From: an uncultured Bacillota bacterium
GTDB lineage: Bacteria; Bacillota_I; Bacilli_A; Culicoidibacterales; ZOR0006
Reading direction: 5' to 3'
NCBI GenBank assembly: GCA_945956935.1
Contig: CAMFJD010000012.1
Span: 1 to 52,413, forward strand
Length of the DNA: 52,413 nt
The notes beneath the pieces are model-generated. The model did not search any database. It was given only the letters and a program-made list of their open reading frames with translations, and was not told the DNA's origin. This document shows, one piece after another, positions 6,625-46,263 of the stretch (positions are counted from its first letter, which is position 1; every line of letters starts with the position of its first letter). The position numbers and the translations under genes were made by a program.

Positions 6625-6686
6625 ACGAAGAACAGTGACTATTTGGACTGCATACTAAATATACAGCACATGTAGTACTTAACCTC

Positions 6687-6749
6687 CGTAGTCGGCCGAT
6701 TTAAGGTTAGCCGGTAGAAACTTCTGGACCATATTTCCAGTTTTATACG
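6687..6749 (-). promoter_or_regulatory. Purine (guanine-type) riboswitch aptamer
   Basis: A 63-nt aptamer: P1 CGTA/TACG, P2 ACTGG/CCAG with loop AAATATGGT, the conserved junction AGTTTCTACC, P3 CGGCTAACC...CGGCCG and GACTACG. The C in GACTAC (position 74 of the family) is the guanine/hypoxanthine-specific base; adenine aptamers have U there. A terminator hairpin follows at 6591-6624, so it should switch transcription off when ligand is bound. Confidence 0.95.
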
Positions 6750-6783
6750 AATATAATAGATATATAATATATATTACTTTACT

Positions 6784-33921: not shown

Positions 33922-36750
33922 TTAAAGCAACGGTTTTAAATATTGCCCTGTATATGATCCCATTACTTCGCTTACTTGCTCAGGTGTTCCCATTGCGACA
34001 ATTTGTCCACCTTCATCGCCACCTTCAGGACCTAAATCGATAATATAATCCGCAACTTTAATTACCTCAAGATTATGTTCAATAACGAGCACGCTATCTC
34101 CATTTTCAACAATTCGCTGTAACACTTTAATCAACTGAGCAACATCAGCAATATGCAAGCCTGTCGTTGGTTCATCTAGAATATATAGCGTTTTTCCAGT
34201 TGCACGTTTATGTAATTCGCTCGCAAGTTTTACACGCTGTGCTTCTCCACCTGATAAAGTCGTTGCCGATTGACCTAATTTAATATAACCAAGCCCAACA
34301 TCAACAATCGTTTGGAGTTTACGTGTAATTTTTGGAATATTTTCAAAAAATTCAACCGCTTCCTCAATTGTCATTGATAACACATCATAAATATTTTTCT
34401 CTTTATAGCGGACGTGTAATGTTTCTGCATTGTATCTTTTTCCATGACACTGCTCACATGGTACATATACATCTGGTAAAAAATGCATTTCAATCTTGAT
34501 AATTCCATCACCTTGACACGCTTCACAACGACCTCCTTTTACGTTAAATGAGAACCGTCCTTTTTGATACCCACGTACTTTTGCTTCATTTGTTTGAGCA
34601 AATAAATCACGAATATCATCAAATACACCTGTATACGTTGCAGGATTTGAGCGTGGTGTTCGACCGATTGGCGATTGATCAATATCAATAATTTTATCGA
34701 TATGTTCCATACCTTCAACACTATCACATGCACCAGGTCTTTCTTTACTTTTATTGACCACTTGTGCTAATGAACGAGCTAAAATATCATGTACAAACGT
34801 TGATTTCCCTGAGCCAGATACACCCGTTACACACGTTAAATTACCAAGCGGAATTGTTACATCAATTCCTTTCAAATTATTTTCATGTGCATTCTTGACG
34901 ACAAGGGATTTTCCACTTCCAACACGTCGTTCAGCTGGGACCGGAATTGATTGTTTTCCTGATAAATATTGACCTGTAATCGAATCAGGATTTGCCATAA
35001 CTTCTTCAGGTGTTCCTGCAGCAACAATCTGCCCACCGTGAATACCAGCTCTTGGACCAACATCGATTAAATAATCAGCGGCACGCATAGTATCCTCATC
35101 ATGTTCTACAACTAAAATACTATTACCCAAGTCACGCATACCTTTTAATGTTTCAATCAAACGATCATTATCACGTTGATGTAGACCAATTGATGGCTCA
35201 TCTAGTACATACGTCACACCTGTCAATCGTGAACCTATTTGTGTAGCAAGGCGAATACGCTGTGCTTCTCCACCTGATAGTGTTCCTGCCATACGATTTA
35301 AGTTTAAATAACCTATCCCGACATTATTCAGGAAAGACAAGCGGTCACCAATTTCCTTTAAGACAAGCTGAGCAATTTTTTGCTGCGTTGGTGTCAATGT
35401 TAATTCTCTAAAAAAGCTCAGACTATCTCTCACTGATAGTGCCGTCACTTCAGCAATATTCTTTAAACCAACTTGAACCGACAGTGCTTTCTCATTCAAA
35501 CGTGTTCCATGACAACTAGGACATAATTGTTCACTCATATATTGATGAATTTGATCACGCATGAAACTACTCGTTGTTTCTCGATAACGTCGTTCAAGAT
35601 TGTTAATAACACCTTCAAAAACCCCCTGACGTTGATGCACTTGACCGCTCTCCGTTTTAAAGGTAAAATCATAAATTTTCTTGCTTCCATAGAGGATTAA
35701 TTGTCGCTCTTTTTTTGTAAAATCTTTGAGTGGCTTATGAATATCAATACCTTCTTCTTTTGCCGCAGTCATCATCATTGAATAATAAATTGAATCAACT
35801 GCCCATCCAGAAATACCAAGTAACAATCCCTCAGCTAGCGAACGATTTGGATCTTTAATAACTAATTGAGGATCAATCTCCATTTTCGTTCCCAATCCAT
35901 TACACTCTTGACATGCTCCAAATGGTGCATTAAATGAAAAAAGACGAGGCTCCAATTCACCAACACTAAACCCACATTGACGGCAAGAAAAATGCTCACT
36001 AAACAGTAATTCCTCTGATTCCCCATCAACTATCACCACTGCTCGACCACTTGCTAATTTCGTTGCTGTTTCTAGCGAATCGTGCAATCGACTTTGACTA
36101 TCTGCTTTCAATGCGATTCGGTCAACAACAACATCAATTGTATGTTTTTTATTTTTTTCTAGCGTGAGTTCGTCCTCCAATAAATGCATTTCACCATTCA
36201 CACGAATACGAACATACCCATCTTTTCGTAACTGTTCTAATACTTTGACATGTGTTCCTTTTTGCCCATTAATGATGGGTGCTAAAATTTGCATTTTTGT
36301 TCGCTCAGGAAATTCGAGCAAACGTTCTGTCATTTGTTGAATCGTCTGTGATTCAATCGGAACGTGATGATTTGGACAATATGGTATCCCTATGCGTGCA
36401 TAAAGCAATCGTAAATAATCATATATTTCTGTCATTGTCCCTACTGTTGAGCGCGGATTACGACTTGTTGTTTTTTGATCAATTGAAATAGCTGGTGATA
36501 AACCCTCTATTGTATCAACATCCGGTTTTTCCATATTACCTAAAAACTGTCTTGCATATGCTGATAGTGATTCAACATAGCGTCGCTGACCTTCGGCGTA
36601 AATCGTATCAAACGCTAGTGATGTTTTTCCGCTCCCAGATAGTCCAGTCAAAATAACTAGTTGATTTTTCGGAATATCGATATCAATATTTTTCAAGTTA
36701 TTTTCACGCGCCCCTTTGACACGAATAAATTTTTGTTCCATATCTGACAC
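33922..36750 (-). CDS. uvrA: Excinuclease ABC subunit A
   Basis: A 942-residue UvrA, full length. Two ABC modules: Walker [15 protein letters not shown] and [14 protein letters not shown], signatures [14 protein letters not shown] and [14 protein letters not shown]. Zinc modules CRQCG...CQEC and CEAC...CEQC are present. It recognises DNA damage with UvrB. The gene has its own promoter, 520 bp after uvrB, with a palindrome at the -35. Confidence 0.97.
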
Positions 36751-36772: not shown

Positions 36773-36801
36773 AGTATATCATACCTTGTCGTTTTGACAA
36801 G
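36773..36801 (-). promoter_or_regulatory. uvrA promoter with palindrome CTTGTC-N5-GACAAG
   Basis: Minus strand TTGTCA (36795-36800), 16 bp, TATACT (36773-36778) with a TG before it. The -35 lies in a perfect 6-5-6 inverted repeat CTTGTCAAAACGACAAG (36785-36801). It does not match the Bacillus LexA box CGAAC-N4-GTTCG. Confidence 0.7.
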
Positions 36802-36852
36802 TAACAAATCTCTTTCCTATATTATATCAAAACATACTCCTAAAAAATAAAA

Positions 36853-36875
36853 AAACACACGATAAACGTGTGTTT
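36853..36875 (-). terminator. Second terminator downstream of the small RNA
   Basis: AAACACACG-TTTAT-CGTGTGTTT followed by TTTTATTTTTT on the minus strand. It backs up the terminator formed by the last hairpin of the C-tract RNA. Confidence 0.88.
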
Positions 36876-36882
36876 AAAAAAT

Positions 36883-37137
36883 AAAAAAGGACATCTGGAA
36901 AAAAAGGGGGGGAAAACCAGATGTCCTTTACAGGGGATTGATGTTTACTCATTGGATTTACGGCTTCGAACAAAAATATTAAAAAAGGGGGGAAGTTCGA
37001 AGTTGCGTAAGCAATAGAATAAACACATGAATGTTAGTTCCATTGGCGGGGGACCGATGTCCCTAACATTCAAAATAAAACTAAATAAAAAGGGGGGTTG
37101 TAAATAGGTTGCAACAAATAGGGGATTTATTTGTTAC
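36883..37137 (-). ncRNA. Multi-hairpin small RNA candidate with C-tract loops (about 255 nt)
   Basis: The 519-bp gap between uvrB and uvrA has no gene but a full minus-strand transcription unit. Read as RNA: hairpin 1 AACAAAUA/UAUUUGUU with CCCC in the loop (37113-37135); a linker with six C (37092-37097); hairpin 2 GAAUGUUAG/CUAACAUUC with a CCCCC loop (37029-37071); hairpin 3 (36964-37002) with a CCCCCC loop; a linker CCCC; hairpin 4 GGACAUCUGG/CCAGAUGUCC (36889-36926) with seven C, then TTTTTTATTTTTT. C-tract loops in Gram-positive sRNAs pair with Shine-Dalgarno sequences. No family is recognised. Confidence 0.78.
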
Positions 37138-37143
37138 GTTGTT

Positions 37144-37173
37144 ATTATACTCGGTATCGACTTAGAATGTCTT
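37144..37173 (-). promoter_or_regulatory. Promoter of the C-tract small RNA
   Basis: Minus strand AAGACA (37168-37173), 18-bp spacer, perfect TATAAT (37144-37149), about 100 nt after the uvrB stop codon. Start expected near 37137. Confidence 0.7.
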
Positions 37174-37269
37174 TAATCAATCATTAGATTGAACTAAAGT
37201 TTTATTCAAGTTGCTCGATTAATAATTACAAAAGTATGTAAAGAATCACAGAAATCGTTTTCTCGTTTT

Positions 37270-39255
37270 TTATTTACTCATTGACGCTTGAATTTCAATG
37301 ATTGCATCTCGCAACTGTGTTGCCGTTTCAAAATCAAGCTTGCTTGCCGCATCTTTCATTTCTTTTTGTAAACGTTCAATTAACTTCATTCTTTCGCGTT
37401 TATTCATTTTAGTCGTTTGATATGGATCCTCGTTATCTTGCACTTCAACACTTGCCGAAATAACATCACGAATTTCTTTCATAATTGTTTTTGGTGTGAT
37501 ACCATGCTCAATATTATATGCCATTTGAATTTCCCGACGACGTTTTGTCTCACTAATGGCCCTTTGCATCGAGTCGGTCATTTTATCTGCATACATAATG
37601 ACATGACCTGATGCATTTCTAGCAGCTCGACCAATAATTTGAATGAGCGAACGTTCAGAACGTAAAAAGCCTTCTTTATCCGCATCTAAAATAGCTATGA
37701 GCGAGACTTCTGGAATATCTAGCCCTTCTCTCAATAAATTAATTCCGACTAACACATCATACTTTCCTAGTCTCAGATCACGAATAATCGCAATTCGTTC
37801 TAATGTTTTAATTTCTGAATGAAGATAGGCAACCTTTATTCCTTGTTCTTTAAAATATTTCGTCAACTGTTCACTCATTTTAATTGTCAGCGTTGTCACA
37901 AGTACACGTTCATTTTTTGCAATTCGCTCATGTATATGCATCATTAAATCATCAATCTGATTTTTACTAGGTTTCACGCTAATTTCTGGATCGAGTAATC
38001 CTGTAGGGCGGATAATCTGTTGAACTACCGGAATACTTGGCTCATACTCTAGTTCATATTTTCCAGGTGTAGCTGAAACATATACAATTTGATTTGTTTT
38101 CTCAATAAATTCATCAAACCGTAGTGGACGATTATCAAGAGCTGATGGTAAACGAAATCCATGTCCGACTAACACTTCTTTTCTGCTTCGATCACCATTG
38201 TACATCCCACCAATTTGTGGGATTGTCACATGCGATTCATCAATAATCATTAAATAGTCATCTGGAAAGAAATCTAGTAAACAAAACGGTGTTTCATCGG
38301 CATCACGCAGTGTTAAATGTCGTGAATAATTTTCAACTCCTGTACAGAAACCCATTTCTCGTAACATTTCTAAATCATATTGTGTCCGCTGTTCGAGCCT
38401 TTGCGCTTCAAGTAACTTCCCTTCCTGATTCAATATAGTTAGTCGTTCACTAAGTTCCGCTTCAATTCGTCTAATTGCTTCTTCTAACGTATCTTTTTTT
38501 GTTACATAGTGACTTGCAGGTAAAATTGCTACGTGTTCACGATCGGCTAATATTTTCCCAGTGACAATTTCCACCTCACTAATTCGTTCAATTTCATCAC
38601 CAAAAAATTCTACTCGAATTCCAGCCTCATCTTGACCAATTGGAATAATTTCAACAACATCTCCACGTACACGGAATGTTCCACGAGCAAATTCAACATC
38701 ATTACGTTGGTACTGAATATCAATCAAGGCTCTCATAAAATCTTGACGATCGAACTCTTGTCCTAAACGAATCGATACGAGCATACTTTTATATTCTTCT
38801 GGTGATCCAATACCATAAATACAAGAAACAGAAGCTACCACAATCACATCACGACGTTCCAATAAAGCAGTTGTTGCTGAATAACGTAATTTTTCAACTT
38901 CATCATTTACTTGTGCATCTTTTTGAATATATGTATCCGTTGATGGTTTATATGCTTCTGGTTGATAGTAATCAAAATTACTGACAAAATATTCAACCGC
39001 ATTATGAGGAAAAAACTCTTTCAATTCACTGTATAATTGTCCTGCAAGTGTCTTATTATGTGCAATGACAATTGTTGGACGATTCACATGTTGAATCACC
39101 TGGCTCATTGTATATGTCTTTCCTGTCCCAGTTGCCCCCAATAAAATTTGTTGTTTTTCTCCACTTTCCAAACCACGAACGAGTTTCTTAATTGCTTCTG
39201 GTTGATCACCACTTGGTTCAAAAGGTGCATGCAATTCAAATTTATCCACTTTCAA
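37270..39255 (-). CDS. uvrB: Excinuclease ABC subunit B
   Basis: A 661-residue UvrB: Walker A GATGTGKT near residue 41, helicase motifs including DESH-type [11 protein letters not shown] and QIIGRAARN, and a C-terminal UVR domain ([30 protein letters not shown]) for UvrC contact. The start is a TTG at 39255 (GGAG 4 nt upstream) or a GTG two codons later. The damage-probing hairpin reads [14 protein letters not shown]; Tyr92 and Tyr93 of the Bacillus caldotenax enzyme are replaced by Asn and Phe here. Confidence 0.96.
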
Positions 39256-45230: not shown

Positions 45231-45671
45231 CTATTCAGAAGTATCTAATATCACAACCTGTTCTCCCATATGATTAACTAAAACATATCGCTGATATTTT
45301 TCACATACTTGTTCACAAGATTGACTAATGATTTTTTCTTCTCTCATAGCAAGTATCATTTTATATTCTGATAATGAATTATCACTCCGAATCCCCCTGA
45401 AATGATAGCCGCCGTAATTTGGCATAATCATCCTAAAATGAAAATCTGTTGTTTCATCTAGCACTTCAACTTCATCAACTATATATTTTAATTCTGTTCT
45501 CTTATCGTAAAATGGCTCACCTATTTTGACTACAGGTATATTAGTTTGTAAATTATTTTGTTTTTTCTCTTCTTGTATATTCTGATTAATAGAATTAACA
45601 ATTAAAATTCCGACTAAAGCTAAAACAATCACAATCAGAGAGATATTTAAATTACGCTGCTTGTGCGACAT
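45231..45671 (-). CDS. Hypothetical membrane-anchored protein
   Basis: A 146-residue protein: one membrane helix at residues about 13-32 (LIVIVLALVGILIVNSI), short coiled linker, then an extracellular domain with FYDKRTELKYIVDEVEVLDE and a Cys pair SCEQVCEKY near residue 125. The start ATG lies within the end of the upstream gene (20-nt overlap) and has no clear binding site, so translation should be coupled. Probably a partner of the secreted protein encoded before it. No family recognised. Confidence 0.65.
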   Translation of the reverse strand: MSHKQRNLNISLIVIVLALVGILIVNSINQNIQEEKKQNNLQTNIPVVKIGEPFYDKRTELKYIVDEVEVLDETTDFHFRMIMPNYGGYHFRGIRSDNSLSEYKMILAMREEKIISQSCEQVCEKYQRYVLVNHMGEQVVILDTSE

Positions 45672-46263
45672 ATTGCGTACCATTCGTAACACTTGTACTT
45701 CTTTCTGTTGTTCTCAAATATTTACCTGAATAACGATCATACACGTCGACTTTATATTTTCTCACTGTTATATCACTATAATTATATATTCTTGTATACT
45801 TCCCTCTGAGTGACGGAGCTACATTATTACAATTAGCAGTAGAACTTGACTCCCTTGAAAAAGCAATTGATACAAGATTAAATCCAAAACCGATACTTAC
45901 ATTTCTATAGTCCGGATGTTCACCAATACCAGTCCAACAAAAATGTGATCTAATCGCTCTGCCAAATGAGAGTGCTTCTCCAAAATTGTAAGGATTTAAA
46001 CTTCCTGATGGTCCATAATTAAATCTTCTAGTTGATAAAAGTGTTAGTTTTTCATACGTACTACTCCTTGATATATTACCTGTTTCTTCAATATTTATAT
46101 ACGTATCTACTAATTTTGGATCAATATAATATCCATTACTATCTTCTACAAAACCCTCAGCTGTATTAGCAAAAACAACTAATGATTCTGTATTCACCAA
46201 GGAAAAAATCGTTAAAAACAAACTAATTATACATAAATACAAATTCTTTTTATGTATTTTCAT
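45652..46263 (-). CDS. Hypothetical secreted protein
   Basis: A 203-residue exported protein. Signal peptide residues 1-34 (KIHKKNLYLCIISLFLTIFS, cleavage near FANTA). The mature part has RRFNYGPSGSLNPYNFGEA, two Cys (SHFCWTGIGEH and TANCNNVAP) that may form a disulfide, and a C-terminal beta-rich VRKYKVDVYDRYSGKY. The ATG at 46263 has GGGGGG 7 nt before it; promoter TTGTAC, 17 bp, TAGAAT (46295-46323). Coupled to a membrane-anchored partner. A toxin or bacteriocin with its immunity protein is possible but unproven. Confidence 0.65.
   Translation of the reverse strand: MKIHKKNLYLCIISLFLTIFSLVNTESLVVFANTAEGFVEDSNGYYIDPKLVDTYINIEETGNISRSSTYEKLTLLSTRRFNYGPSGSLNPYNFGEALSFGRAIRSHFCWTGIGEHPDYRNVSIGFGFNLVSIAFSRESSSTANCNNVAPSLRGKYTRIYNYSDITVRKYKVDVYDRYSGKYLRTTERSTSVTNGTQYVAQAA

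Follow-up and report, generated by a model that had tools for sequence, protein, structure and literature searches.

RsaE/RoxS, a bacterial small RNA (sRNA), uses C-rich UCCC motifs for target pairing. The LhrC sRNAs carry CU-rich sites at three positions, namely in a loop, in a single strand and in the terminator loop, and they pair with Shine-Dalgarno regions without requiring Hfq (PMC4132741). The sRNA sX13 folds into three stable stems whose apical loops contain C4-C5; it is Hfq-independent and acts as a repressor of mRNAs in which G-runs lie close to the start, as well as of hfq, and ~5% of genes have a G-run in the ribosome-binding site (PMC3771888). Three C-rich regions occur in IsrR (PMC9410917). 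In the csRNAs of the CiaRH regulon, stem-loops carrying anti-Shine-Dalgarno sequences are preceded by a direct repeat for an activator, NTTAAG-N5-TTTAAG (PMC3091779). We found a predicted RNA with six C-tracts between uvrB and uvrA on contig CAMFJD010000012.1 of an uncultured Bacillota bacterium. This contig, analyzed over its whole length of 52,413 nucleotides (the window), belongs to a low-GC Bacilli genome of 1.84 Mb (G000). It is probable that the RNA is an independently transcribed, Hfq-independent, trans-acting anti-Shine-Dalgarno sRNA, whose six C-tracts would act as redundant seeds and block ribosome binding.

The predicted sRNA gene occupies positions 36882..37137 of the minus strand, on which all of its parts lie, and is delineated by a promoter-like site, a terminator, its fold and a homologue in a second species. 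The promoter-like site (37144..37173) consists of AAGACA at 37173-37168, which is a poor match to a -35 hexamer, an 18-nt spacer and TATAAT at 37149-37144. G37137 is the likely start, giving a predicted transcript of ~255 nt. Hairpin 1 (37113..37135) has 8 bp and a CCCC loop (37124-37121), and is followed by a single-stranded linker of 40 nt (linker 1, 37073..37112) containing CCCCCC at 37097-37092. Hairpin 2 (37028..37072) has a CCCCC loop (37052-37048), and the long stem of hairpin 3 (36942..37026) ends in the apical loop CCCCCC (36992-36987). Linker 2 (36930..36941) contains CCCC (36936-36933). Finally, hairpin 4 (36886..36929) corresponds to an intrinsic terminator with 13 bp, a CCCCCCC loop (36912-36906) and then TTTTTTATTTTTT; a backup terminator, AAACACACG-TTTAT-CGTGTGTTT with a T-run, lies at 36853..36875. 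Every loop and both linkers thus contain a C-tract, with lengths of 4, 6, 5, 6, 4 and 7 from 5′ to 3′. The promoter, the four hairpins with their C4, C5, C6 and C7 loops, the two linker tracts and the terminator with its backup had all been proposed in a preliminary description made from the sequence, and each is present as it was described. We amend that description in two details, the weakness of the -35 hexamer, over which a conserved element lies, and the probable start at G37137.

The stability of the fold greatly exceeds chance expectation. Its minimum free energy is -66.2 kcal/mol, compared with -32.7 +/- 3.5 kcal/mol in 200 dinucleotide-shuffled sequences (z = -9.6), none of which is as stable. 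The C-tracts are also concentrated well beyond the background, which we determined in ~1.18 Mb of G000; this part of the genome also underlies the start-site and C-loop scans below, and coverage of the second species was ~1.19 Mb. On both strands of the G000 part, there are 32 runs of at least six Cs, such that 0.0035 are expected in a 257-nt stretch, where we observed 3 (Poisson tail ~7e-9). For runs of at least four Cs, we observed 6 and expected 0.15 (~1.4e-8). Given that this stretch was selected for its striking appearance, these tails are descriptive. There is no second place in the 1.18 Mb with four consecutive C-loop hairpins, although single C-loop terminators, which look like chance occurrences, are present elsewhere. 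A blastn search of the whole genome found one copy of the RNA and, apart from it, a 24-nt match at the level of chance.

The sole other species of the genus that we compared (G001) has a homologue downstream of its uvrB gene with 82-83% identity. Flanking coding DNA is 79% identical between the two species, and the remainder of the uvrB-uvrA gap does not align. All six C-tracts are retained in G001, and the RNA from this species, folded alone, forms the same four hairpins (z = -10.1). We identified five two-sided compensatory changes, three in hairpin 3 and two in hairpin 4; when the pairing partners were slid by 1-3 columns as a control, no two-sided changes remained in these hairpins. The stem of hairpin 2 is mostly replaced in G001 by a new sequence that still pairs around an unchanged UCCCCCG loop. 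At the position of the backup terminator, G001 has a different hairpin and T-run, CACGAATGAAAATTCGTG. Coming from two sequences, the covariation support is strong but not exhaustive. Covarying stems with conserved loops are what the preliminary description had anticipated, but where it spoke of conserved stems with variable loops the wording must be reversed, as it is the loop C-tracts that are conserved and the stems that covary. From the hairpin 1 loop through to linker 1, a block of 55 nt is without any difference between the two species, and linker 1 is perfectly conserved outside its C-run as well.

One further change in hairpin 4 is one-sided, with a U-A pair in G000 becoming U-G in G001. 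This change preserves pairing only in the minus-strand RNA and, together with the minus-strand terminator, fixes the RNA strand as minus. It is therefore highly improbable that the plus strand is the functional molecule, as a G-rich transcript, or that the RNA is coding or has a dual function. The plus strand does have a promoter-like sequence, TTGACA-18-TATATT (36794-36823, 11/12 matches), from which transcription would run antisense into the sRNA, but this site is not kept in G001 and no terminator is present on that strand. Moreover, the U-G pair would become an A-C mismatch, and the fold of the plus strand stands out less from its own shuffles (z = -4.9). As to coding, the open reading frames in the region are not conserved between the two species, which have none in common.

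The C-tracts have a matching class of sites at gene starts. On both strands of the scanned 1.18 Mb there are 250 runs of five or more Gs, and such runs occur in the 25 nt preceding the start codon in 57 of 1005 predicted genes (5.7%), where 2.7 would be expected; this 21-fold excess is somewhat inflated because start codons were chosen partly by the strength of the Shine-Dalgarno sequence. The class is also stable, as 14 of 408 orthologue pairs have the G-run at the start in both species (2.25 expected, p = 5e-10). Duplexes with the RNA of -18 kcal/mol or stronger are predicted at 68 of 1005 start sites, as opposed to 4 of 991 internal coding sites, an excess that is as for any anti-Shine-Dalgarno sequence. 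An Hfq gene (PF17209) was not found in G000, G001 or G002, a genome from the same order (as is G003), although control genomes with known Hfq gave matches. In a genus that yielded no Hfq match, Hfq-independent pairing through accessible loops is the natural reading.

Taken together, the covarying stems, the loops that stay C-rich, the fixed strand and the G-runs at gene starts provide good support for a trans-acting, structured sRNA whose anti-Shine-Dalgarno seeds are C-rich. Its mechanism as an anti-Shine-Dalgarno sRNA is probable. A minus-strand RNA of ~255 nt would be made from its own promoter, presumably under the control of an activator at a conserved upstream element. The six C-tracts, in four loops and two linkers, would be redundant seeds, each pairing with G-runs within or beside Shine-Dalgarno sequences, and ribosome binding would consequently be blocked on several mRNAs. 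Since all loops and linkers expose C-runs, switching genes off by covering G-rich ribosome-binding sites is the probable outcome, and the mode of action would resemble that of LhrC, sX13, IsrR or RsaE.

Several points weigh against this interpretation, besides the inflation of the start-site excess just mentioned. The RNA is known from two species only, and the transcript and both of its ends are predicted. The number of conserved targets obtained with the flanks of linker 1 is not above that obtained after shuffling them, and thus no specific regulon can be named. The best individual predictions are affected in a similar way. The start of an ABC-transporter ATPase gene (L203:13077-13832) pairs with linker 1 at -30.5 kcal/mol, but this value was equalled by 2 of 60 sequences in which the flanks of the C-run were shuffled. 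Similarly, at the start of a GDPD gene (G000:C1:27872-27895), 24 nt match the hairpin 3 loop almost perfectly, but 2 of 60 such shuffles did as well. We rejected the ATPase gene as a conserved target, as the pairing is missing at the closest match in G001, and the GDPD gene as a decisive one, as the 24-nt match is absent from the G001 orthologue. Of the earlier proposal of a global translational repressor, the C-rich anti-Shine-Dalgarno seeds are well supported; the repressor role itself is plausible, with no conserved target rising above the shuffled flanks.

The fact that pairing outside the C-run is no better than chance might instead be taken to mean that the RNA titrates a protein, with its hairpin C-tracts sequestering a C-binding protein, for example the KH-domain proteins KhpA/KhpB. 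CsrB/RsmZ-type RNAs, which present GGA motifs to titrate protein, are the model for such a function. In agreement with titration, the motif is repeated in the loops, the loop C-tracts are conserved while the stems are free to covary, and KhpB/Jag is encoded where Hfq was not found. However, the C-tracts match the conserved G5 class of Shine-Dalgarno sequences, mRNA targets have been proven for other C-loop sRNAs, and we know of no poly(C)-binding global regulator in Bacilli. We therefore regard titration as unlikely.

Among the strongest predictions of the anti-Shine-Dalgarno interpretation is khpB/jag, with -25.8 kcal/mol in G000 and -18.8 kcal/mol in G001. Its start has a G6 run in G000 (L161:9944-10594, minus strand) and a G5 run in G001 (L289, minus strand). 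The gene is an attractive candidate because sX13 represses hfq (PMC3771888), but as a predicted target it is a lead only. A PP2C phosphatase gene is also predicted to pair in both species (-25.0 kcal/mol in G000, -20.0 kcal/mol in G001). Strong C-tract pairing is likewise predicted, again in both species, at the starts of three consecutive genes (L155:3279-5770, plus strand), the first of which encodes an ABC-transporter ATPase. By inspection only, a phosphate theme (phoU, a PnpS/PhoR-like kinase and GDPD) and a transport theme appear among the top predictions. Within the window, a gene on the minus strand (45655-46263) has the start sequence AAGGGGGG, and the G-run is weaker in the G001 relative. 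Its product, of 203 aa, has a signal-like stretch at the N-terminus and matches no Pfam family.

A conserved 42-nt element, AAACTTTARTTCAATCTAATGAWTGRTTAAAGACATTCTAAGTC (37160..37202, minus strand), covers the -35 hexamer and extends upstream of it, and is a possible activator site. It is near-identical in the two species, whereas the DNA flanking it is not conserved, and it is single-copy in its genome. Within the element, an imperfect direct repeat, CAATCTAATG / CATTCTAAGT, occurs 22 bp apart. The poor -35 hexamer and the conserved element over it make activator dependence of the sRNA promoter likely, as judged from these sequence features.

The upstream neighbor of the RNA is uvrB (37270..39255) and the downstream neighbor is uvrA (33922..36750), both on the minus strand and assigned by NCBIfam UvrB and UvrA equivalog models. 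The uvrA gene has its own promoter, TTGTCA-16-TATACT (36800-36773, minus strand), which is kept in G001. An inverted repeat, TTGTCAAAACGACAA, overlaps this promoter (36773-36800, minus strand) and is degenerate in G001. One G001 contig, carrying uvrB and the RNA, stops in a T-run past the second terminator hairpin of the RNA, and another, carrying uvrA, stops at a T-run ahead of the uvrA promoter. As both contigs end in the uvrB-uvrA gap, the order uvrB-RNA-uvrA is probably the same in G001. Elsewhere in the window, we noticed a purine riboswitch aptamer (6669-6770) and six clustered tRNA genes (54-604), all on the minus strand.

The position of the RNA between uvrB and uvrA, which the G001 contig ends fit as well, could point to a cis-acting element, in which a structured 3′ end of the uvrB mRNA or a uvrA leader affects the stability or expression of the repair genes. 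We consider this quite unlikely. The RNA has its own upstream element and a -10 hexamer that is identical in G001, and two terminators precede uvrA, whose promoter is its own and conserved. In addition, there is no evident cis partner for the C-tracts, as the RNA itself is without any G4 run. Lastly, a cluster of such C-tracts was found in none of the uvrA upstream regions of 80 other loci (0/80), nor in G002.

The trans-acting sRNA appears to be confined to its genus. The preliminary description had suggested a model search in related genomes; a model (R1) of hairpins 3 and 4 found G001 besides G000, and no other among 296 genomes of the class. When we allowed up to three mismatches, the 33-nt 5′ block occurred in these same two genomes alone among 395 of the class. 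Restriction to a genus is common for Gram-positive sRNAs. A mobile origin was rejected, as plasmid and phage searches gave no match.

No Rfam family scored above its cut-off, and the best sub-threshold matches include LhrC, ncr1241 and RsaE. Hairpin 4 and the backup terminator align weakly to LhrC1-5 of Listeria (RF00616; 30.1 bits, E 0.012), well below the cut-off of 110; membership in this family was thus rejected. LhrC also differs in having 111 nt, five copies and three sites, whereas the RNA described here has ~255 nt, six sites and, by whole-genome blastn, one copy (the scan for C-loop clusters covered 1.18 of the 1.84 Mb). Hairpin 1 (AACAAAUAAAUCCCCUAUUUGUU) appears to resemble the 5′ hairpin of RsaE, but membership in RsaE/RoxS (RF01820) was rejected at 14.9 bits (cut-off 79). 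Several stable stems with apical loops of C4 or more are shared with sX13 of Xanthomonas, and the class of genes with a G-run in the ribosome-binding site, ~5% there, is similar in size to the 5.7% with G5+ runs found here, which is conserved between species. By description, sX13 is set apart in being gammaproteobacterial, located beside polA and equipped with three loops, and it is not known to be related in sequence. The Staphylococcus IsrR is Fur-repressed and has Fur boxes, whereas the element at 37160-37202 is, by eye only, without a Fur-like 7-1-7 palindrome; also by description, H1 and H2 of IsrR are conserved in sequence with little covariation, while the stems here covary. The csRNAs of Streptococcus are similar in being stem-loop RNAs with anti-Shine-Dalgarno sequences and a direct repeat upstream. 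However, a CiaR-like promoter was rejected, as NTTAAG-N5-TTTAAG is absent upstream of the -10 hexamer, where the sequence is TTAAAGACATTCTAAG. Based on the Rfam models, this RNA is a separate, new family. What is unusual in it is the number of tracts (six) and their length (up to seven). The preliminary remark that no family has this layout was overstated, since the precedents of LhrC (PMC4132741), sX13 (PMC3771888) and IsrR (PMC9410917) make the layout one of a known kind.

More speculatively, and in our estimation rather doubtful, the multi-seed RNA could be a global switch in an Hfq-less lineage, with a conserved regulon defined by Shine-Dalgarno sequences of the GGGGG type. With khpB/jag in that regulon, the targets would include the mRNA for a putative RNA chaperone, which would be the counterpart of sX13 repressing hfq.

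An unrelated RNA thus joins LhrC, sX13, IsrR and RsaE in what is probably the same solution, namely directing C-runs in loops against G-rich start sites, and it extends this design to six seeds, each of four to seven Cs. The two species provide a natural test, in which stems were rewritten and every C-tract was kept. If the proposed function is correct, a lineage of Bacilli in which Hfq was not found would have control by an sRNA, and one class of Shine-Dalgarno sequences would be tied to a single regulator.
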